From positions 1-62,902 of the forward strand of contig DASTCX010000015.1 in the NCBI GenBank assembly GCA_035710745.1: a stretch of 62,902 bases of DNA, written 5' to 3'. The stretch comes from Candidatus Eremiobacteraceae bacterium. GTDB taxonomy: Bacteria > Vulcanimicrobiota > Vulcanimicrobiia > Eremiobacterales > Eremiobacteraceae. Below, piece by piece: positions 4,320 to 62,722 of the stretch. The notes under the pieces are model-generated. The model searched no databases. It worked only from the letters and a program-made list of their open reading frames with translations, and was not told the origin of the DNA. The position numbers were made by a program, and so were the translations under genes. The number at the start of each line of letters is the position of its first letter. The first letter of the stretch is position 1.

Positions 4320-4868
4320 ATGACGTGGGAGGCGCTCACCGCGATCGCGTCGCTCGTGACGACGCTTGTCATCGCCGTCACGGCGATCGTCGCGATCGTC
4401 CAGATCCGTCACTTGCGCGCCGCCAACCAGCTCGCGGCGGCGATGGCTCTTATGGGTGAATTGGAGACTCTCGTCGACGTCCGGACGTTTGTCGCGACTA
4501 CGCTCGAGCTAAAGCTCAAAGATCCTGCGTTTCGGGAGTCGCTCTCCACCAACAGATTCGACCGGCACGAGCACCTCGAAATCATCCTCGGCAACTACTG
4601 GGAGAAGTTTGGCATCTTGCTTCGCCAAGGGCTGCTCGATAGGCAGCTCTTCCTCGACTGGGGCGCACAAGGGTGTCTTCGTGATTGGAGGCAGCTGCGC
4701 GAGGTGACGGCCCTGATCCGCGGACCCTCGCCCCAAGTGTGGCGCGACTTCGAATACCTGGCGCACATGGCCGCGATCCACTTGGACGACCTCTACCGTC
4801 ATCCGCTCAAACACCCGGAGTGGCGAGAAAGCCTCGACGCGGTGCCGGAGACCGGCGCCGCCGACTAG
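4320..4868 (+). CDS. Membrane-anchored protein of unknown function
   Basis: 182 residues. A single N-terminal transmembrane segment (about residues 7-28, TAIASLVTTLVIAVTAIVAI) is followed by a cytosolic-looking helical domain with several conserved-looking aromatic and charged residues. The layout resembles small DUF4760-like proteins, but I cannot assign a family firmly. It starts five bases after the acyl-CoA dehydrogenase stop, so the two are probably cotranscribed. A palindromic repeat follows its stop codon. Confidence 0.7.
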   Translation: MTWEALTAIASLVTTLVIAVTAIVAIVQIRHLRAANQLAAAMALMGELETLVDVRTFVATTLELKLKDPAFRESLSTNRFDRHEHLEIILGNYWEKFGILLRQGLLDRQLFLDWGAQGCLRDWRQLREVTALIRGPSPQVWRDFEYLAHMAAIHLDDLYRHPLKHPEWRESLDAVPETGAAD

Positions 4869-4883: not shown

Positions 4884-4905
4884 CGGTCGAGCTAAAGCTC
4901 GACCG
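4884..4905. repeat. GCGGTCGA palindromic element
   Basis: Perfect inverted repeat CGGTCGAGCT / AGCTCGACCG with an AA loop, lying between convergent genes. Intact member of the dispersed family; the variable inner arms pair perfectly. Confidence 0.85.
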
Positions 4906-11110: not shown

Positions 11111-11132
11111 CGGTCGAGCTTTAGCTCGACCG
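11111..11132. repeat. GCGGTCGA palindromic element
   Basis: CGGTCGAGCT / AGCTCGACCG with TT loop, followed by CGCGG. It lies between trxA and selA. Compared with 4884 the loop differs but the arms pair perfectly. Confidence 0.85.
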
Positions 11133-11161: not shown

Positions 11162-12541
11162 ATGGACACCGACTCGCTGCGATCCGTCCCCGCCGTCCAC
11201 CGTTTCACCGACGACGCGGCGATCGCGGCCTACCGTCCATTGCTCGGGGCGTCAGCGGTCAAGACGTGCGTCAATGAAGTCCTCGAAGGAGCGCGCGCGG
11301 CCGCCAGCGCGGGCGATCCGTTAACGTTTGACCTGTTGCGCGAGCGCGTGCTGAGCGCGCTTGCCGCGCGCGAGGCCGACGGCCTCATCGGCGTCGTCAA
11401 CGCCACCGGCGTCCTGCTCCACACGAACTTCGGCCGAGCGCCGCTCGCTGACGCGGCGATCGATGCCGTCGCAAGACTCGGTCCGGGCTATACGAACCTC
11501 GAATTCGATCTCGAGAGCGGCGATCGCGGCAGCCGTTACGATCGCGTCGCGTCGCAGCTGTGCGAACTCTCGGGCGCGCAAGCGGCGCTCGTCGTCAACA
11601 ATTGCGCCGCCGCCGTCCTGATCGTGCTCGACACGTTCGCGCGCGGCCGCGAAGTCGTCGTCAGCCGCGGCCAGCTCATCGAGATCGGCGGCGCGTTCCG
11701 CCTTCCCGACGTCCTTAGGAAGAGCGGCGCGACGCTCGTCGAGGTCGGCACGACCAACCGCACGTACGGCGCGGATTACCGCGACGCGTGGTCGGAGCGG
11801 ACTGCGATCTTCATGCGTTCGCATCCGAGCAACTACCGTGTCGAGGGCTTCACCGCCGAAGTCGACGCGGGCTCGATGGCGGCGATGGCGCGCGAACTCG
11901 GCGTCTTGTCGTTCGAGGATCTCGGCTCCGGCGCGCTCGTCGATCTGTCGCGTTTCGGGTTGCCCCGCGAGCCGACGCTTGCGGACGAGATCGCCGCCGG
12001 CGTCGACCTCGTCGCGGTCTCCGGCGACAAGCTGCTCGGCGGACCTCAGTGCGGCATCATCGCCGGGCGCGGCGGGCTCATCGACGCGCTGCGACGCAAC
12101 CCGTTGCTTCGTGCCCTACGCGTCGATAAGATGACGCTCGCCTCGCTCTCGGCGACGCTCGCGCTTTACATCGAGCCGGGGCGCTTGCGCGACATCCCCT
12201 TCTTCGCGATGCTGACGACGCCGCTTGACGATCTTCGAGCGCGCGCCGACGCGATCTGCAAGGCGACGAGCGGCGCGCGATCGATCGACGTCAGCACCCG
12301 CGACACGCTGTCCGCGATAGGCGGCGGCAGCCTGCCTACTTCGACGATCGCTTCCGCGGGCATCGCTCTCATCTCGCGCGAGACGAGCGTCGACGACTTA
12401 GCGGCGCATCTGCGACGTCGGCGGCCGCCGATCGTCGGACGCGCGGACGGCGACTGCGTCGTCCTCGACCTTCGCACGGTGCGACCCGCCGAGGACGCCG
12501 CCATCGTCGCGGCCGTCATGTCCGCCCCGGCATGCGTATAG
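11162..12541 (+). CDS. selA: L-seryl-tRNA(Sec) selenium transferase SelA
   Basis: PLP enzyme that converts seryl-tRNA(Sec) to selenocysteyl-tRNA(Sec) using selenophosphate. At 459 residues it has full length. Seen: N-terminal tRNA-binding helices with NATGVLLHTNFGRAPL, the substrate-binding region VGTTNRTYGADY, and the PLP lysine in VSGDKLLGGPQ (about residue 290). The matching tRNA-Sec gene is at 47023-47116. selB overlaps its end by 10 bases, so the two are translated together. No selD in the window. Confidence 0.96.
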   Translation: MDTDSLRSVPAVHRFTDDAAIAAYRPLLGASAVKTCVNEVLEGARAAASAGDPLTFDLLRERVLSALAAREADGLIGVVNATGVLLHTNFGRAPLADAAIDAVARLGPGYTNLEFDLESGDRGSRYDRVASQLCELSGAQAALVVNNCAAAVLIVLDTFARGREVVVSRGQLIEIGGAFRLPDVLRKSGATLVEVGTTNRTYGADYRDAWSERTAIFMRSHPSNYRVEGFTAEVDAGSMAAMARELGVLSFEDLGSGALVDLSRFGLPREPTLADEIAAGVDLVAVSGDKLLGGPQCGIIAGRGGLIDALRRNPLLRALRVDKMTLASLSATLALYIEPGRLRDIPFFAMLTTPLDDLRARADAICKATSGARSIDVSTRDTLSAIGGGSLPTSTIASAGIALISRETSVDDLAAHLRRRRPPIVGRADGDCVVLDLRTVRPAEDAAIVAAVMSAPACV

Positions 12542-14445
12542 TCGGGACCGCCGGGCACGTCGATCACGGCAAGAGCTCTCTCGTCATCTCGCTGACCGGC
12601 CACAATCCCGACCGCTGGGTCGAGGAGCTCGAGCGCGGCATGACCCTCGACCTCGGGTTCGCGCCTTTGCGCTTTTCCGACGGCGTCGAGGCGGGCATCA
12701 TCGACGTGCCCGGCCACGAGCGTTTCATCCATAATATGCTCGCCGGCGCGGCCGGCATCGACGTGCTCCTGCTCGTCGTCGACGCGCTCGAAGGCCCGCG
12801 GGCGCAGACCCGTGAGCACCTTCAGATACTCGGCTTCCTCAATGTCGCGCGCTCGATCGTCGTGCTCACGAAGATCGATATCGCAGACGAGGCGGCGGTC
12901 TCGCGCTCGACCGCGGCGGTGCGCGATACGATCGTGGGAACCGTAGCCGCCGATGCTGCGATCATGGCCGTGTCGAACGCGACCGGCCAAGGTATCGAGG
13001 AGCTGAAATCGGCGATCCACGATGCGCTCGTCGCGCTTCCGCCGCGGCGCGAGGACGCGCCGGCGTTCTTGCCGATCGATCGCGTCTTCGCTCTGCCCGG
13101 TCACGGCACGATCGTCACGGGCACGCTCATGCAAGGGATGATCCGCGCGGGTGACACGCTGACGCTCCAGCCTGCGGACCGGCCGGCGCGCGTGCGCAGC
13201 CTTCAGATCTTCGGACGCAAGACCGGCAGCGCTCACGCCGGCTCCCGATTGGCGATCAACGTGCCCGGCATCGATGCCTCGACGACACGGCGCGGAGACG
13301 TCCTCGCCGCAACTCGCGAGTTCGAGCCGTCGTCGATGTTGTCTGTCGAGTTCACGCCGCTCGAAGGGGCATTGCCCCTCTTGCGCCGGCGCACCGCGGT
13401 GCGCGTCCACATCGGCTCGGCGGAGATCGAAGGACGCCTCGTGTTCGACGAGCGGCCGACGACGGCAGAGCCGGTGCAGGGGCTCGTCGAACTGGCGCGC
13501 CCGACGGTGACGTATCGCGGCGCTCGATTCATCGTACGTCGTTTGAGTCCGAAGGATCTCCTCGGCGGCGGCACCGTCGTGTACAGCGATCTTGGGGAGC
13601 GGTCGAGATTCATCTCGACCGCCGCGGCCGGTCCAGACGATACGAACCGAGACGACGCGCTCTGCCTTGAGGCGATCGAATCCGTCGGCATTGCAACCGT
13701 CGAGCTTCTTAAGATCGCCTCTGCTGCGAATATCCTCGAGGCCGCGGCACGCTCGGCGGTCGGTCGCCTTGTCGAAGAAGGCCGCGTCGTCGCGCTTGCA
13801 AAGCCGGTCTCGTACCTCACGCGTGAAGCGTACGAAACGGCTTTCGAGCGATGCGCCGCTGCTTTGCGCGAACGTCACGCGCGCGCGCCGTGGCGCTTAG
13901 GCTGCTCGGCTTCGGAGATCGCCTCCGCTCTCGGCATCGACGATATGCTATGCACGCGCCTGCTCGTCGCGTGGCACGACGACGGTCGCATCGCGGTGAA
14001 ATCGCGGTGCTGGCGATTACCGGAGTTCACACCGACGCTCGCACCCGAACAGCAGGCGTTCTTCGCAGAAGCGTTTCGCGTCGACGCTACCGCGCCGCTC
14101 GTGCCGGCATCGTATGCGAGCGCGATGAGCGGTGCCGACGACCGTCGCATCTCGGGCACACGCGAAGCGTTCGAATCGCTCGTCGCCGCGGGCCAACTGG
14201 TCCGTATCGGCGACGACGTCTACCGTCGAAATCAATTCGACCGCGCGCGCCTCACGGTGGAAAACGCGCTTGCGAACGGCGACAGTGCGACGACATCACA
14301 GCTGCGTGTCGCGCTTGGAATATCGCGCAAGTACGCGTTGCCGCTTTTAGAACACTTCGACTCGCTCGGCATCACCGTGCGCGACGGAGACCTCAGGCGA
14401 CTGCGTGCAAGCGCGGGAAATACCGGGTCTCGCGTACAAGTGTGA
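12532..14445 (+). CDS. selB: Selenocysteine-specific elongation factor SelB
   Basis: GTPase that carries Sec-tRNA(Sec) to UGA codons marked by a SECIS hairpin. G-domain motifs: GHVDHGKSSLV (P-loop), DVPGHERFI (G3) and TKID (G4). Domains II-III follow, then C-terminal winged helices that bind SECIS RNA. At 637 residues it is normal length. A complete GCGGTCGA palindromic element (13599-13622 plus a GC-rich tail) lies inside the gene and is translated in frame as about eleven residues, ERSRFISTAAA, in the linker between domain III and the winged helices. The GTPase core is not affected. Confidence 0.95.
   Translation: MRIVGTAGHVDHGKSSLVISLTGHNPDRWVEELERGMTLDLGFAPLRFSDGVEAGIIDVPGHERFIHNMLAGAAGIDVLLLVVDALEGPRAQTREHLQILGFLNVARSIVVLTKIDIADEAAVSRSTAAVRDTIVGTVAADAAIMAVSNATGQGIEELKSAIHDALVALPPRREDAPAFLPIDRVFALPGHGTIVTGTLMQGMIRAGDTLTLQPADRPARVRSLQIFGRKTGSAHAGSRLAINVPGIDASTTRRGDVLAATREFEPSSMLSVEFTPLEGALPLLRRRTAVRVHIGSAEIEGRLVFDERPTTAEPVQGLVELARPTVTYRGARFIVRRLSPKDLLGGGTVVYSDLGERSRFISTAAAGPDDTNRDDALCLEAIESVGIATVELLKIASAANILEAAARSAVGRLVEEGRVVALAKPVSYLTREAYETAFERCAAALRERHARAPWRLGCSASEIASALGIDDMLCTRLLVAWHDDGRIAVKSRCWRLPEFTPTLAPEQQAFFAEAFRVDATAPLVPASYASAMSGADDRRISGTREAFESLVAAGQLVRIGDDVYRRNQFDRARLTVENALANGDSATTSQLRVALGISRKYALPLLEHFDSLGITVRDGDLRRLRASAGNTGSRVQV
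13599..13622. repeat. GCGGTCGA palindromic element inside selB
   Basis: GCGGTCGAGAT / ATCTCGACCGC with TC loop, followed by CGCGGCC, identical in its core to the copy at 62650. Unlike most other copies it lies within a coding sequence and keeps the reading frame. This resembles palindromic elements known to insert into protein genes in Rickettsia. Confidence 0.88.
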
Positions 14446-14495: not shown

Positions 14496-16763
14496 ATGCT
14501 CGCCCTGACCGCGGCCCTCGTCGCATGGTCCGCGTCCGCGACACTCGCGCTCGCCGTCGATACCGGTACGCTGCGCGGCTTCGTCACGGACACGAACGGC
14601 CGCGCGATCGCCGGCGCCCACGTCACAGCCTCGATCGCTCGCTCGTCTTTCGGAGCCGTGAGCACCGCTGACGGTTCGTTCACGATCTCATCGATGCCGC
14701 AGGGCGTTTACAGCATCGACGTCACCGCTCGCGGCTTCCAGCGCCTCAGCGACCAGATCGTCGAAGTGAACGCCGGCGAGACATCGGACGTGAACCTCAC
14801 CCTCTCGCAGCAGTCGGCTTCTGCGATGGCGACCATAGGCCGCGTCACGGTCAACGGATCTAATGCGCTCTCGACCGCGTCGGCGCCGACGACCGACCTC
14901 GCCCCTCAAGATCTCGCCGGCCGCGGAGTCGAGCAGCTCTCGCAGATACTCGGCGATCAGATCGCGCTGACATTGACGCGCCAGATGGGCGGCGCCCCAG
15001 GTCTGCCGGAATCGGCGAGCATCCGCGGCCCGGATCCGTCGGAGACGGTCGTCGACATCGACGGGCATCAAGTGAACAACTCGAACACCGGCGATTTCGA
15101 TCTCGAGCTCATGGATCCGGCGGAATACTCGAGCGTCCAGGTCGTCTATGGGATCGGCCCGTCATCGCTCGTCGGCGCGAACACGCAAGGCGGAGCGATC
15201 AATTTCCGCACGATCGAACCCACGACCGAAGACCACGGACTGCTGCGCTTCACAGCCGGCAGTTTCGGCACGTTCGGGGAGACCGCGCAAGCGACTGGCA
15301 CTGACGGTCAGTTCGGCTATGCGCTCTCGTGGCATCACTACACGACGCAGGGCGAGACGCGCGATTTCTCGGTCATCGATTCGAACACCGGCCTTCCCGT
15401 CGAGCTCGGCAGCGGTGTCAACGGCGTTTCGACGCTCGCGAAGCTGCGCTACACGCTCGACGGCGGCCTCGGTTTCGCCGAGGTGACGTATAGGAACACT
15501 GCCGCCTCGCGCGATCTTTCCGCCGGCTTGAGCACGCCGGTCAACCCGGCGAACGCAGGAGAAGGCGCGGTGTTCGATACCGCGCAGGGCGCGTCGGATG
15601 AGACGAATGCTCCCGCATTCGGCGTCGATCTCTCCTTGCCGGTCGGTGCGCTCGACGCGTCGGGTGCGGTGACGGCGTCTCTGGTCGCTCGACATCTCAC
15701 GAGCACGTCCGACGAATCGACGCCGAACGTCGACCCGGCGCTCAATCCCTACCTCATCGACCAGCGCGACCAGCTGAGCGACGACTCGCTCGAGTACGAC
15801 CGCTATGCCGGCGACTCGACATTCACCCTCGAAGGCGACATCCGGCACGAGCAATTGACCGCGCCGGTCGTGCTCGCGCCAGGCCCGGGCACCCAATCTC
15901 AGACGCAGCGTTCGTTCGTCGCGCGCGATGAGTGGAGTCCGACGTCGCACCTCCACTACACGCTCGCCGCGTATGCGAGCCGCTACGACACCTTCGGTTC
16001 GTCGATCGATCCGCGCGTCGCGATCGTGTGGACGCCTTCGGCCGATGCCATCTTCAGAGCTTCCGTCGGTTCCGGCTTCCGCGCTCCTCTGCTCGCGGAG
16101 CGCGCGTTCAATCCAAATCTGACCGCCGAACGCACGACCGAGTACGAGCTGGGCTACCAGGCGCGCCTTGGCGACGGCGAGCGGCCGGTGAGCGGCGAGC
16201 TCAACCTCTACCGCACGAACTTGCGCGACCCGATCTTCTTCACGGTCAACCCCGACGGCAGTTTGGCGTTCTTGGAGAACCTCGGTTTCGTCGTCTATCA
16301 GGGCGCGGAGCTGCGGTTCGACGCGCCGCTAGCCGGCGGGACCGAACTGCAAGCCGCATACGGTGTCGACATCGCATATCCGGTCGACAATCCGTTCGCG
16401 TTCGACCCCGCGGCGCCAAACGTCGTCGCAGGCGAGCAGTTCCAGAGCATCCCGCCGCGCAAGGCGACGCTTAGCGCTATCCACGACCAGGGCGGATTGC
16501 TCGAACGTCTCGACGCGACGTACGAAAGCTCGAACAACGAATTGAACCGGCCGGCGTACGCGCTGTTCAACGCGACGGTCGCGAAGACGTTCGGCCAGAC
16601 GCAGATCGCGCTCTCGGCGCTCAATCTGACAAATCAGTTCGACGACCGCTTCACCCTACCGGGCGCGGGCGTGCCTTATCCGACGCCCGGTGGCCTGGCG
16701 CCGACCGATGCGTTCTCGCTGCAGGGCCAGAGCGTCTCGGTCACGATCACGCGCCGGCTCTAG
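14496..16763 (+). CDS. TonB-dependent receptor with carboxypeptidase-like N-domain
   Basis: 755-residue outer membrane receptor. Start ATG 14496 has a strong AGGAGG at 14487-14492 and gives a clear signal peptide (MLALTAALVAWSASATLALA). Residues about 25-110 form a carboxypeptidase-regulatory-like beta-sandwich (GTLRGFVTDTNGRAIAGAHV); then a plug domain with SASIRGPDPSETVVDIDG, and a C-terminal beta barrel ending in an aromatic/charged strand (SVTITRRL). Such receptors import siderophores, cobalamin or other large solutes using TonB energy. Substrate is not evident. It starts 50 bases after selB. No TonB/ExbBD in the window. Confidence 0.88.
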   Translation: MLALTAALVAWSASATLALAVDTGTLRGFVTDTNGRAIAGAHVTASIARSSFGAVSTADGSFTISSMPQGVYSIDVTARGFQRLSDQIVEVNAGETSDVNLTLSQQSASAMATIGRVTVNGSNALSTASAPTTDLAPQDLAGRGVEQLSQILGDQIALTLTRQMGGAPGLPESASIRGPDPSETVVDIDGHQVNNSNTGDFDLELMDPAEYSSVQVVYGIGPSSLVGANTQGGAINFRTIEPTTEDHGLLRFTAGSFGTFGETAQATGTDGQFGYALSWHHYTTQGETRDFSVIDSNTGLPVELGSGVNGVSTLAKLRYTLDGGLGFAEVTYRNTAASRDLSAGLSTPVNPANAGEGAVFDTAQGASDETNAPAFGVDLSLPVGALDASGAVTASLVARHLTSTSDESTPNVDPALNPYLIDQRDQLSDDSLEYDRYAGDSTFTLEGDIRHEQLTAPVVLAPGPGTQSQTQRSFVARDEWSPTSHLHYTLAAYASRYDTFGSSIDPRVAIVWTPSADAIFRASVGSGFRAPLLAERAFNPNLTAERTTEYELGYQARLGDGERPVSGELNLYRTNLRDPIFFTVNPDGSLAFLENLGFVVYQGAELRFDAPLAGGTELQAAYGVDIAYPVDNPFAFDPAAPNVVAGEQFQSIPPRKATLSAIHDQGGLLERLDATYESSNNELNRPAYALFNATVAKTFGQTQIALSALNLTNQFDDRFTLPGAGVPYPTPGGLAPTDAFSLQGQSVSVTITRRL

Positions 16764-16776
16764 GCAACCTGACGCA

Positions 16777-16808
16777 GGGAGCGGTCGAGATTTATGTCGA
16801 CCGCTCCC
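16777..16808. repeat. GCGGTCGA palindromic element, possible terminator
   Basis: GGGAGCGGTCGA / TCGACCGCTCCC, 12-bp arms with an 8-base loop, just after the TonB receptor stop. A decayed second half-copy follows (about 16818-16845, ending GTCGACCGCTCC). Could help end transcription between convergent genes. Confidence 0.8.
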
Positions 16809-33338: not shown

Positions 33339-33362
33339 GCGGTCGAGGTAAACCTCGACCGC
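33339..33362. repeat. GCGGTCGA palindromic element (second of a tandem pair)
   Basis: GCGGTCGAGGT / ACCTCGACCGC with AA loop. The spacer from the first copy (about 28 bases, ending AAGGTCGTC) is nearly the same as the spacer before the truncated copy at 62751, so the pair forms a composite unit. Confidence 0.8.
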
Positions 33363-44479: not shown

Positions 44480-44602
44480 CGGAGCCTCTGTTTAGACTTT
44501 CAGCGTCGCTTTGGTGGCGTTTGTTCGCCTGTTGTCACACGCTCGAGCATATACTCCTCCTTGAGCCCGTTGGTTTACGGGCCTGTCGGCGCGGGAGCCA
44601 GC

Positions 44603-44764
44603 ATGAGCGCGGGACCATCGAAACAACGCTGCGGGGTTTGTGGGGAGCGGCGCCCATCCGTCCGCATCGAGGGTGAGCTGATATGCCTCGAGTGTGCCGC
44701 CCGTTTGGGGCTTGTCGAGAAGCCGACCGACTCCTCAGATGCTGAAGGGGTGCCGGAGGAATGA
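44603..44764 (+). CDS. Small zinc-ribbon protein
   Basis: 53 residues from ATG 44603. Two CxxC knuckles, CGVCG and CLECAARLGL, around a basic-acidic linker, the usual pattern of a zinc ribbon. Function unknown; similar small proteins often act with transcription or with RNA. An in-frame TTG at 44561 adds 14 residues. Confidence 0.5.
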   Translation: MSAGPSKQRCGVCGERRPSVRIEGELICLECAARLGLVEKPTDSSDAEGVPEE

Positions 44765-45095
44765 GCGTCCGCTAAATCCGCATCGCTTCTTCGACCGCCC
44801 GATCTTCCGACCAAGATGCGCCGACTGCGGCATGCGTCTGGATCTCAGCGTCGCCAATAAGGACCAGTCGTATGGTGACTTTAGCCCACGCCGCCCCGTC
44901 TTGTACATTCCCGAACAATGTGGGCAGAATGCGGCCAAAAAACTTGCGCACCGTATCATTGCAGGACGCGCAAAGCTTTATGGCATAAGGCTGGGACCCG
45001 TTACAGGAGAAGCCCGCGGCCGACAGCTGCTAGTCTTCAAATTTGTGCGTGATTCCGTCAATTGGCGCGCTCTCGTTCGCGTCGGAGCAGACTAG
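44739..45095 (+). CDS. Hypothetical protein with one CxxC knuckle
   Basis: Open frame of about 118 residues overlapping the zinc-ribbon gene by 26 bases. The middle contains CADCGMRLDL and a plausible alpha/beta stretch. No ribosome binding site at ATG 44739 and no recognised family; it may be a real partner of the zinc-ribbon protein or just an open frame. Confidence 0.35.
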   Translation: MLKGCRRNERPLNPHRFFDRPIFRPRCADCGMRLDLSVANKDQSYGDFSPRRPVLYIPEQCGQNAAKKLAHRIIAGRAKLYGIRLGPVTGEARGRQLLVFKFVRDSVNWRALVRVGAD

Positions 45096-45124
45096 GCTAA
45101 ATGCTACGATGGAGGATAGGCGGC

Positions 45125-45730
45125 ATGAGGAACCTCGATCGGACTTGGTTTGCGGTTCTCGTGATCTCGCAGCTCGTCGGATGCTCTCACGGCTCCACCG
45201 ACTATCGAGGGGGTTTCGCCGCGCAAGCGGGTGCCGCGGAGGCGACCACTTCGGAGCGTCCCCTCATCATCGCTGAAGCGGCAGGCGAGGTCCGTCATTG
45301 GCGACCATTGACCGGCATGCCGGTAAAGCGAACGCTCAGCTCATTCACTATTAAGATCGACGAGAAGAACGGAGGCTCGCCCGGTCTTTGGGTCGGAACC
45401 TCGAGCATGCCGGTCGGCGGAGCAATACGGCTGCACCGGCATCTCCACGAAGACGAGGTGTTGTACATCAGATCGGGCACCGCACACGTGCGGGTAGGCA
45501 GCCTTCAAGGCAATGCGGGTGCCGGAGCGCTGGTTTTCATTCCGAGAAATACGTGGGTGTCGGTGAATAACGTCGGCAAGACGCCAGTCTTCTTGTTGTT
45601 CGAATTCAACGCCCCCGGTTTTGATCGCTACATGCGATGCGAATCGGTACCGGCGGGCGAGCTCGTGATGCCGGTAGGCCCATCTGAAGACAAACGTTGT
45701 GCGCAGCTCGGAGATGTCGAGTATCGTTGA
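45125..45730 (+). CDS. Cupin-domain lipoprotein
   Basis: 201 residues. Signal peptide with lipobox (SQLVGCSHGS). The C-terminal half is a cupin beta-barrel: HRHLHEDEVLYIRSG (metal-binding histidines and glutamate of motif 1) and a second motif GALVFIPRNTWVSVNNVGK, missing its histidine. Likely periplasmic small-molecule binding or enzyme. GGAGG lies upstream. Confidence 0.78.
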   Translation: MRNLDRTWFAVLVISQLVGCSHGSTDYRGGFAAQAGAAEATTSERPLIIAEAAGEVRHWRPLTGMPVKRTLSSFTIKIDEKNGGSPGLWVGTSSMPVGGAIRLHRHLHEDEVLYIRSGTAHVRVGSLQGNAGAGALVFIPRNTWVSVNNVGKTPVFLLFEFNAPGFDRYMRCESVPAGELVMPVGPSEDKRCAQLGDVEYR

Positions 45731-45797
45731 GGTTTGTTCCGGCACTCGCGGGCATATTGGATTCAGCACGGCAGTCCGCCAAACTCCGCAATGGCGC

Positions 45798-45850
45798 AAA
45801 GCCCGTCAAATGGCGCGTTCCGTCGTTACGAGAGAAGTCTGGGGCTGGTG
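45798..45850 (+). pseudogene. Partial duplicate of tRNA-Sec upstream region and 5' end
   Basis: This segment matches 46990-47043, which holds the immediate upstream region and first 21 bases of tRNA-Sec (GAGAAGTCTGGGGCTGGTG shared). Only a few differences occur over about 53 bases. The duplicate stops in the D-arm and cannot form a tRNA. Confidence 0.75.
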
Positions 45851-45896
45851 CCGATCCAGCACAACGTCAGCGCCGATAAGACGGACAACCTCTCCG

Positions 45897-46085
45897 CTAA
45901 TGATCCTCGAGTAGCCGCTCTTTCGTGGTCGGGATCCGTTCGACGTCCTCGGGGTCGAAATTGTGATCCCTGAGATCGCCCTCGTGCAGGTAGCGCACGA
46001 CCACCGTCCTTATCTTCTGTTCGATTACTGTGCCCTCGAGCCGGAGCTTCGTGATATAGACCTTGTCGCCGCGTCGGTATTTCAT
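45897..46085 (-). CDS. Small KOW-like beta protein
   Basis: 62 residues. Sequence pattern KYRRGDKVYITKLRLEGTVIEQ with alternating charged and hydrophobic residues resembles KOW/SH3-like small barrels. Start overlaps the stop of the upstream 46082-46270 ORF (ATGA), suggesting an operon. Function unknown. Confidence 0.5.
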   Translation of the reverse strand: MKYRRGDKVYITKLRLEGTVIEQKIRTVVVRYLHEGDLRDHNFDPEDVERIPTTKERLLEDH

Positions 46086-46270
46086 GACGTTACGGCTCTT
46101 TCGTCGGCGACGAAGTCACCTTCGGTCCGGGTCCGCTTGCGGGTTTTTCGGATACCTTCAAGGCCGAAGCGGATGGGTCGCATTTTGATGTCATCTCCAC
46201 TGTGTATGGTCGCTAGAGTGAGGCTGCCCTCACGGAAGAAGCTATTCGGGCCCAGACGTTCCCGCCTCAA
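46082..46270 (-). CDS. Small hypothetical protein
   Basis: 62 residues, coupled to the KOW-like gene by an ATGA overlap. Basic, no recognised motif. A direct repeat shared with 46927-46980 lies upstream of it (46341-46395). Real existence is moderately supported by coupling and native composition. Confidence 0.4.
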   Translation of the reverse strand: MRRERLGPNSFFREGSLTLATIHSGDDIKMRPIRFGLEGIRKTRKRTRTEGDFVADERAVTS

Positions 46271-46340
46271 ACGCGCAAGCGCCTTCGAGCGATTGCGCTG
46301 CCGGCCACTGCTGTCTAATGCCGTCTAGTATCGCTGAGTG

Positions 46341-46395
46341 CATTAGCAATCCATTAGCAGAACGCCGATTCTCGGCCTTTTCGCGCTACTGCGGG
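46341..46395. repeat. Direct repeat, copy 1, upstream of small minus-strand genes
   Basis: Begins with a 19-base exact match CATTAGCAATCCATTAGCA to 46927-46945 and continues with about 80 percent identity through CCTTTTCG. Both copies lie just upstream of minus-strand genes (46270 and 46935), suggesting a duplicated promoter region. Confidence 0.7.
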
Positions 46396-46452
46396 GGAAG
46401 GCACGAATACCCAGCGCGAAACCGATTGGGAGTACCTCGCTTCCCTTCGCTG

Positions 46453-46935
46453 TTACCCACCAGGAACAGGGACTACCTCGCAGTCTTCCGAGTCGACAAC
46501 CGCATTCGTGTTGAGGACCGGCCAATACGCGTCCTTTGGGCCTTCGATAAAGATGGTAAGCCGGCGAGCCCACCCCTCGCGCATCCATCGAACGTCGGGG
46601 ACCTGAGCAGCTGACGGCAACGAGGCGAAGCGAGAATACGTCTTCGCGAGGCGCAGCCGCGCTGGCGTACTTGGCGACGCGAAGAGCTCGATCTCACGGC
46701 GGCTCTCCGGGGAGACGTGCTGTGCGTCGAACGCCTCGTTTGTCGCCGGAAACATCTCGTCATAGATCCAGCATGTCGACGGAGAAGGCTCTGGGCTGGG
46801 TGATGGAGTGTTTGACGCGCTTGCGCTCTGGTGCCCACACCCCGCAGCGAAGACGGCGATCAGGAGCGCCCAAATGGTCGGCAGCCATGTCGATTTGGTT
46901 CTTGTGCCGCTTGGTATCGCCAATAGCATTAGCAA
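46453..46935 (-). CDS. Lipoprotein of unknown function
   Basis: 160 residues. Lipobox VFAAGCGHQ and a PSPSPEPSPS linker, then a soluble domain (about residues 54-150) without a known motif, containing a Cys pair. Surface or periplasmic location. Upstream region is shared with the previous small operon through the direct repeat. Frame intact. Confidence 0.6.
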   Translation of the reverse strand: MLMLLAIPSGTRTKSTWLPTIWALLIAVFAAGCGHQSASASNTPSPSPEPSPSTCWIYDEMFPATNEAFDAQHVSPESRREIELFASPSTPARLRLAKTYSRFASLPSAAQVPDVRWMREGWARRLTIFIEGPKDAYWPVLNTNAVVDSEDCEVVPVPGG

Positions 46936-46980
46936 TCCATTAGCAAGTCGCCATTTCCCAGCCTTTTCGTCGACTCACGG
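46927..46980. repeat. Direct repeat, copy 2, leading into tRNA-Sec upstream region
   Basis: CATTAGCAATCCATTAGCA plus about 35 further bases similar to 46341-46395. The lipoprotein start at 46935 and the tRNA-Sec upstream region flank it. Confidence 0.7.
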
Positions 46981-47022
46981 GATTCGCGGAAAGCCCCGTC
47001 AAATGGCGCGTTCCGCGTTTAC

Positions 47023-47116
47023 GGGAGAAGTCTGGGGCTGGTGCTCCTGCTGGTCTTCAAAACCAGTTGGTCTTCGCAAGGGGACTGGTAGGTTCGATTC
47101 CTATCTTCTCCCGCCA
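47023..47116 (+). tRNA. selC: tRNA-Sec (anticodon TCA)
   Basis: 94 bases. An 8-bp acceptor stem GGGAGAAG / CTTCTCCC, discriminator G and encoded CCA. Anticodon stem CTGGT / ACCAG holds loop CTTCAAA with anticodon TCA, reading UGA. A long variable arm follows (GTCTT...GGGGAC region) and the T-arm GTAGG-TTCGATT-CCTAT. The extended acceptor and long variable arm distinguish it from serine tRNAs. It fits selA and selB in the window. The GNAT gene on the other strand overlaps its 3' end by 16 bases. Confidence 0.96.
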
Positions 47117-47625
47117 CGTTTGGCAATCCAATCGCGCTTCAGGATCGCCATCCATACAAGGTCGCGCCACGAGCCTTCGTGATGGATATAGCGTCGCAGC
47201 AGAGCCTCGCGTGTGAAACCGCACTTCTCATAGACATGAATCGCGGCCGCGTTGTCCGGATAGGCGCCGAGCTCGACACGGTGCGTTCCCAGCGTGACGA
47301 ACGCGACCTCGCACATCTTCTCGACGGCAAAAGTACCCGCTCCGCGTCCGCGCTCTTCGGGATCAAAAATCGCGATCGCGAGTTCGAGTCCGGCGTACTG
47401 CGGCTTCCATAGCCGGCACGTGCCGATGACCCGCTCTCCTCGCATGATCGCGTAGCGACGCATCCCTTTAGGATTTATCGCCGACATCGGACGTGGAAGA
47501 TGCCAGCGCGTCGACGGCGCCGCCGCGCCTGAATTGAACCCGTCTTGCAGGGCCGCGGCATGCTTGGATCCCGGGTGCTCGAGGCGGACGCCGTCCGGGC
47601 CCCCCGTCAGTGTCACTCTAGCCAC
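47101..47625 (-). CDS. GNAT N-acetyltransferase (RimJ-like)
   Basis: 174 residues, GTG start at 47625. Acetyl-CoA binding motif in EERGRGAGTFAVEKM (R/Q-x-x-G-x-G/A) and C-terminal YPDNAAAIHVYEKCGFTREALLRRY, as in spermidine/protein acetyltransferases of the RimJ/RimL type. Target unknown. Its start overlaps the stop of the second GNAT gene by 8 bases. The 3' end overlaps tRNA-Sec on the opposite strand. Confidence 0.85.
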   Translation of the reverse strand: MARVTLTGGPDGVRLEHPGSKHAAALQDGFNSGAAAPSTRWHLPRPMSAINPKGMRRYAIMRGERVIGTCRLWKPQYAGLELAIAIFDPEERGRGAGTFAVEKMCEVAFVTLGTHRVELGAYPDNAAAIHVYEKCGFTREALLRRYIHHEGSWRDLVWMAILKRDWIAKRGGRR

Positions 47626-49610: not shown

Positions 49611-49633
49611 CGGTCGACCGTAACGGTCGACCG
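49611..49633. repeat. GCGGTCGA palindromic element
   Basis: CGGTCGACCGT / ACGGTCGACCG with a single A loop. The inner arms (CCGT/ACGG) differ from the copies with GAGCT arms but still pair. Confidence 0.85.
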
Positions 49634-52667: not shown

Positions 52668-52689
52668 CGGTCGAGCTAAGGCTCGACCG
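52668..52689. repeat. GCGGTCGA palindromic element
   Basis: CGGTCGAGCT ... GGCTCGACCG; one inner position is a G-T pair in RNA. Lies between scpB and the methyltransferase. Confidence 0.8.
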
Positions 52690-62649: not shown

Positions 62650-62673
62650 GCGGTCGAGATTCATCTCGACCGC
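62650..62673. repeat. GCGGTCGA palindromic element (tandem, first)
   Basis: GCGGTCGAGAT / ATCTCGACCGC with TC loop; core identical to the copy inside selB. Confidence 0.85.
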
Positions 62674-62697: not shown

Positions 62698-62722
62698 GCG
62701 GTCGACCCTTACGGTCGACCGC
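62698..62722. repeat. GCGGTCGA palindromic element (tandem, second)
   Basis: GCGGTCGACC ... GGTCGACCGC with CTTAC-type centre, followed by CGCGG. Preceded by AAAGGG. Confidence 0.8.

Follow-up and report, generated by a model that had tools for sequence, protein, structure and literature searches.

A translated REP unit in selB and the REP/RAYT system of an Eremiobacteria (Vulcanimicrobiota) lineage

In E. coli, Stenotrophomonas and Marinomonas, repetitive extragenic palindromes (REPs) are high-copy hairpins with a tetranucleotide head that lie mostly between genes, and the REPtrons of these bacteria comprise a RAYT (TnpAREP) gene flanked by inverted REPs (PMC8266576, PMC2817692). TnpAREP enzymes recognise the single-stranded REP hairpin together with its head, and the head can guide the choice of the cleavage site (PMC8266576). 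The insertion of a REP within a gene is a kind of event that is already known: PMC3733652 (2013) describes intragenic GTAG/CGTC REPs that are translated in frame, with repair genes hosting many of them and tRNA synthetase genes some, and its text on intragenic REPs does not name SelB. A second point of comparison is provided by the Rickettsia palindromic elements, which are likewise palindromic repeats read as in-frame peptides within genes.

The family described here resembles the REPtron systems in its high-copy, mostly intergenic hairpins with a tetranucleotide head and in its RAYT genes flanked by inverted REPs, and the TTTA loop of many of its copies is that of the Marinomonas REP. It differs from the systems of E. 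coli, Stenotrophomonas and Marinomonas in having GGAG as the main head, alongside a sister subtype headed by GTAG. In the literature library searched, no paper mentions Eremiobacter- together with repetitive extragenic palindromic.

The REP unit of selB and its host gene

The window, meaning the whole stretch of 62,902 nucleotides that was analysed, carries selB at 12532..14445 on the plus strand (637 residues). The product scores 310.6 bits against TIGR00475 (cut-off 242.25) and contains the Pfam domains GTP_EFTU, GTP_EFTU_D2 and SelB-wing_3, the last of which (59.1 bits) is the C-terminal winged helix. An ORF that is selA-like in appearance (11162-12541) lies upstream of selB and overlaps it. 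A tRNA-Sec gene, found by ARAGORN and by Rfam RF01852 at 47023-47116, is about 33 kb from selA/selB, so that the core selenocysteine machinery lies within the window. This tRNA gene is located inside a segment of about 3 kb (44480-47617) in which the codon-usage gene caller placed no genes.

Within selB, a complete REP unit of the GA-stem subtype, GGAG-CGGTCGAGATTCATCTCGACCG-CCGCGGCC, occupies 13596..13629 on the plus strand. The head GGAG (13596..13599) is followed by a hairpin (13600..13621) with a 9-bp stem, CGGTCGAGA/TCTCGACCG, and a TTCA loop, and then by the tail CCGCGGCC (13622..13629), the most frequent tail among GA-type copies; the copy is a singlet. Counted from the start of the coding sequence at 12532, codon 357 is the CGG at 13600-13602, and the unit is translated as E356 plus the ten residues RSRFISTAAA (357-366). 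The ORF runs unbroken across the element, with no stop inside it. The sequence-only reading had placed a palindrome at 13599-13622, read in frame as about eleven residues, and had taken it for a complete member of a dispersed family with a core identical to the copy at 62650. Each of these points is upheld, and the identity extends to the whole 34-mer GGAGCGGTCGAGATTCATCTCGACCGCCGCGGCC, which occurs 28 times in exact form in 2.53 Mb of the genome, within a family of about 500 copies. Judging by this exact identity to other copies, the unit is very likely an insertion.

The same reading had assigned the peptide to the linker between domain III and the winged-helix region, which agrees with the predicted structure. 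In an AlphaFold2 model built from 36 sequences (mean pLDDT 87.9), residues 352-369 fall below 50 and are located between a strand (343-349) and a helix (370-383). From LGGG to the first winged-helix region the linker measures 48 residues, against a median of 40 (range 35-63) in 26 relatives. Among relatives at 46-57% identity this segment is too variable for a clean comparison, and in two of them it equals or exceeds the length seen here with no REP present. The family hairpin was not found within selB at any of the 109 other SelB loci examined. The element is absent from the SelB of all relatives examined, within and outside the phylum, and the conservation in distant phyla that would have marked it as native sequence was not seen among these proteins.

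No empty site for the insertion was seen, the contig of the congener stopping approximately where the element would begin. The last bases of that contig, read in the direction of selB, are GGAG then AGCGCCT, with no hairpin (L025 1-20, contig C155 of the congener genome G001). The C-terminal half of the congener gene was searched for in the congener assembly and not found, and a scan of the genome contigs for SelB returned only the congener copy cut by the contig end and distant SelBs. The position of the REP in a low-confidence, hypervariable linker suggests that it is probably tolerated rather than functional, with a neutral effect on SelB. The sequence-only reading had described a foreign peptide added to an essential-looking decoding factor; the suggestion of a burden on that factor is not supported, given this location.

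A REP family of about 500 copies

Family statistics refer to 2.53 Mb of the 2.97 Mb genome (about 85%), while the strict-pattern count refers to the whole genome. A search for arms GGTCGA/TCGACC separated by 8 or 9 bases gives 524 matches, or about 500 copies of the family. The strict pattern GCGGTCGA-N8-TCGACCGC occurs 319 times (reversed-pattern control, 0). The congener has 195 occurrences, and 59 further genomes of the class have between 0 and 2 apiece; the few strict matches listed from these do not belong to the family type. In the window alone, GCGGTCGA is observed 34 times against 14.5 +/- 3.7 in shuffles; given this excess and the control count, the palindrome family is not a product of chance.

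Both inner positions of the stem are paired in 504 of the 524 matches, as GA/TC (218), GC/GC (173), CC/GG (94) or CG/CG (16), and this co-variation identifies the hairpin as the conserved feature. A stable RNA hairpin of -20.8 kcal/mol is predicted for the unit, and no Rfam family matched the element. Among 472 oriented copies the head is GGAG in 294 and GTAG in 154, and a CCGCGG tail is common. Across the genome the head goes with the stem: among copies with four-base TTYA loops, 193 of 208 with GA stems have a GGAG head and 136 of 158 with GC stems a GTAG head; the copies with five-base loops mostly combine CC stems with GGAG.

Where do the copies lie? With genes called by the codon-usage script of this analysis, 84% of the sequence is coding and 503 of the 524 matches (96%) are intergenic. 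Convergent gaps hold 128 REP clusters (191 such gaps of at least 40 nt) and divergent gaps only 11 (289 gaps), and REPs lie a median of 25 nt from the 3' end of a gene. This placement agrees with that of published REPs (PMC3733652) and REPINs (PMC3116915). As in REPINs, inverted doublets are present, here as 59 neighbour pairs, all with the heads outward and none with the heads inward, at a commonest spacing of 51 nt; in a departure from REPINs, direct pairs of neighbours (114) and singlets (198 clusters) outnumber them.

On the minus strand of the window, an intergenic copy (4884..4905) lies about 15 nt past a stop codon ending at 4868, and further intergenic copies are found at 33340..33361 (with a CTAC end, the GTAG head of that strand), 49611..49633 (CC stem) and 52668..52689 (GC stem). 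On the plus strand lie an intergenic copy with a GTAG head and GC stem (11111..11132) and a GGAG-headed copy with one stem mismatch about 18 nt past a stop codon ending at 16763 (16782..16803). The intergenic copy at 62651..62672 (+) shares the 34-mer of selB and is followed 48 nt further on by a CC-stem copy at 62699..62721 (+), the two forming a direct pair.

RAYT transposases and their matched REPs

PF01797 matches two genes each in this genome and in that of the congener. Both products of this genome exceed the cut-off of the equivalog NF047646 (REP_Tyr_transpos; 94.6 and 89.3 bits against 80) and carry an HUH motif (PDHIH or FDHVH) and a tyrosine then an NP-x-R-A motif (YVLANP). The sole solved relative found for one of them, RAYT-B, is the TnpAREP structure 4er8, a weak match (E 8e-4).

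The gene of RAYT-B, a Y1 transposase (C31:20771-21103), is flanked by identical REPs, with three GGAG/GATTCATC units upstream and, downstream, three more in inverted orientation, one of which has an altered loop. These inverted GGAG-CGGTCGAGATTCATCTCGACCG units, present on both sides, are of the selB subtype. The second gene, RAYT-A on C25, is flanked by GTAG-CGGTCGAGCTTTAGCTCGACCG units, with GTAG/GCTTTAGC on its flanks plus one extra GGAG unit downstream. Each genome holds two REPtrons, L278 (1224-2101, GGAG/GA) and L270 (1323-2056, GTAG/GC) here and L268 and L276 in the congener, with matched REP subtypes and with both pairings conserved between the two species. Orthologous RAYTs are 82 and 85% identical and the paralogues 61%. 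No dedicated RAYT was found for the REP subtype that combines five-base loops with CC stems (CC/GG stems, 94 copies).

In other genera of the family, RAYT genes (L269, L271, L273, L274, L277) are flanked by different inverted hairpins, with GTAG, GAAG or GTGG heads and loops that are often TTTA-like. One of these, the GAAG-GGGCCGA REP, occurs 223 times in the genome it comes from (G003) and is missing from the five other genomes tested; its absence from two other species of its genus indicates that REP families turn over fast.

The repeats have the properties by which REPs are recognised, namely a palindrome of 20-50 nt in high copy number (524 matches in 2.53 Mb), a conserved tetranucleotide head 5' of it (usually GTAG, here GGAG in the selB copy) and a mainly extragenic location (503 of 524), to which the selB copy is among the exceptions. 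Almost wholly intergenic and linked to its own transposases, the family is, by its sequence features, a REP family with a RAYT system.

In-gene copies and the origin of the selB insert

Entry into coding sequence, proposed by the sequence-only reading, is not confined to selB. Across about 85% of the genome there are 11 genuine in-gene copies in 10 genes, selB included. Seven of the genes match named families, namely selB, gltX, phoH, mfd, the family 4 uracil-DNA glycosylase (UDG), rsmB and glcF (two copies), the best family matches of rsmB, glcF and phoH being below NCBIfam's own cut-offs. The glycosylase carries its REP in the C-terminal tail. In a nitrilase-like gene the REP precedes the conserved domain, and the start call may therefore be wrong; the remaining two hosts have no family name. 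Five apparent in-gene copies were rejected for unpaired inner stems, and five further ones because they only touch gene ends. The presence of copies in Mfd, UDG and GltX, together with SelB, recalls the intragenic REPs described in PMC3733652.

To decide which in-gene copies are shared, the positions of REP hits were compared with those of gene hits; on this basis gltX, glcF, mfd and rsmB of the congener also harbour a matching REP, and its phoH yielded none. In mfd the REP is in frame at a comparable place in both species (G000:C16:78251 and G001:C70:11024). The glcF-like gene (L166:5260-6768) contains two in-frame REPs 49 nt apart; one REP is likewise present in the corresponding gene match of the congener, which is longer.

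The in-gene peptides recur. GA-type copies use one common frame and orientation, ERSR(F/S)IST, reading ERSRFIST in SelB and PhoH and ERSRSIST in Mfd, while three GC-type copies (GltX, GlcF and UDG) share the frame GRA(K/E)ARPL, as GRAKARPL or GRAEARPL. With small numbers and a pattern spotted after the fact, these recurrent frames are only a lead.

Such recurrence, together with the in-frame selB copy and the 11 copies in 10 genes, is what would be expected of an element of the Rickettsia type, targeted to coding sequence and spreading as translatable peptides, the likeness that the sequence-only reading had drawn. An element of that type is contradicted by a family in which 503 of 524 copies are intergenic despite 84% coding sequence, and in which a dedicated transposase is linked to the repeats. 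Preferential location in coding sequence is not seen, with 11 genuine in-gene copies among more than 500, and translatability is cheap, since the GA subtype leaves five of its six frames open anyway (and the GC subtype three). RPE-1 is moreover described as a longer palindromic insertion in genes, unlike the units of about 34 nt found here, 96% intergenic and accompanied by RAYTs. An origin of the Rickettsia kind is accordingly judged highly improbable.

The stable hairpin predicted for the RNA of the unit could instead point to a functional signal in the selB mRNA, an attenuator or recoding element recruited from the REP family. The ORF is unbroken and holds no in-frame UGA, on which ground a recoding or SECIS role was rejected; the element recurs at hundreds of unrelated sites, mostly intergenic, and in unrelated genes, and is absent from the selB of every relative examined, making such a function very unlikely. 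A native linker that became palindromic through chance or convergence is barely conceivable: so hypervariable a linker could hold any sequence, but the exact 34-mer is common to 27 other sites in 2.53 Mb and the family palindrome is present in selB at 0 of the 109 other SelB loci.

How, then, did the unit reach selB? We hold with high confidence that the 34 nt at 13596-13629 are a GGAG/GA REP that entered the selB of this Eremiobacteria lineage, probably by way of RAYT-B, and was tolerated in the linker. In the manner of TnpAREP enzymes, RAYT-B would have cleaved and rejoined REP DNA in single-stranded form, and may have spread the GGAG/GA subtype, the selB copy among them, a role suggested by published TnpAREP behaviour and by the matching flanks. 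If everything after the GGAG head was inserted, with boundaries placed on that assumption, the insert would comprise 22 + 8 = 30 nt, exactly ten codons, and the frame would thereby have been kept. Its survival may be owed to the landing site, a flexible linker joining domain III to the first winged helix that tolerates changes in length and sequence, and SelB with the insert presumably still works. Several observations count against this REP/RAYT-B origin: no empty site was seen, the linkers of relatives vary too much for a clean comparison, the search for RAYTs gave none for the CC-stem subtype, and the head is GGAG and not the canonical GTAG. In the terms of the strict GTAG REP superfamily (PMC3733652), the selB copy and its subtype (GGAG) fall outside, and GTAG is found only in the sister GC-stem subtype.

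A more tentative proposal concerns the system as a whole. The two RAYT paralogues, with separate REP specificities (GGAG/GA and GTAG/GC), might have stayed together with their REPs as matched pairs while the species diverged. With the RAYTs of other family genera flanked by their own hairpins (heads GAAG, GTAG and GTGG), they could form a natural series for the RAYT-REP recognition code. Selection among in-gene copies would perhaps favour a single hydrophilic frame, and linker peptides such as ERSRFIST and GRAKARPL would recur for that reason.

Surprise at finding a REP in SelB should be modest, since the linker accepts almost anything. The findings extend the list of proteins known to bear translated REPs to SelB and the products of several housekeeping genes. 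They also document a complete REP/RAYT system from an uncultured phylum, in which two subtypes differ together in head and stem and each flank their own RAYT.
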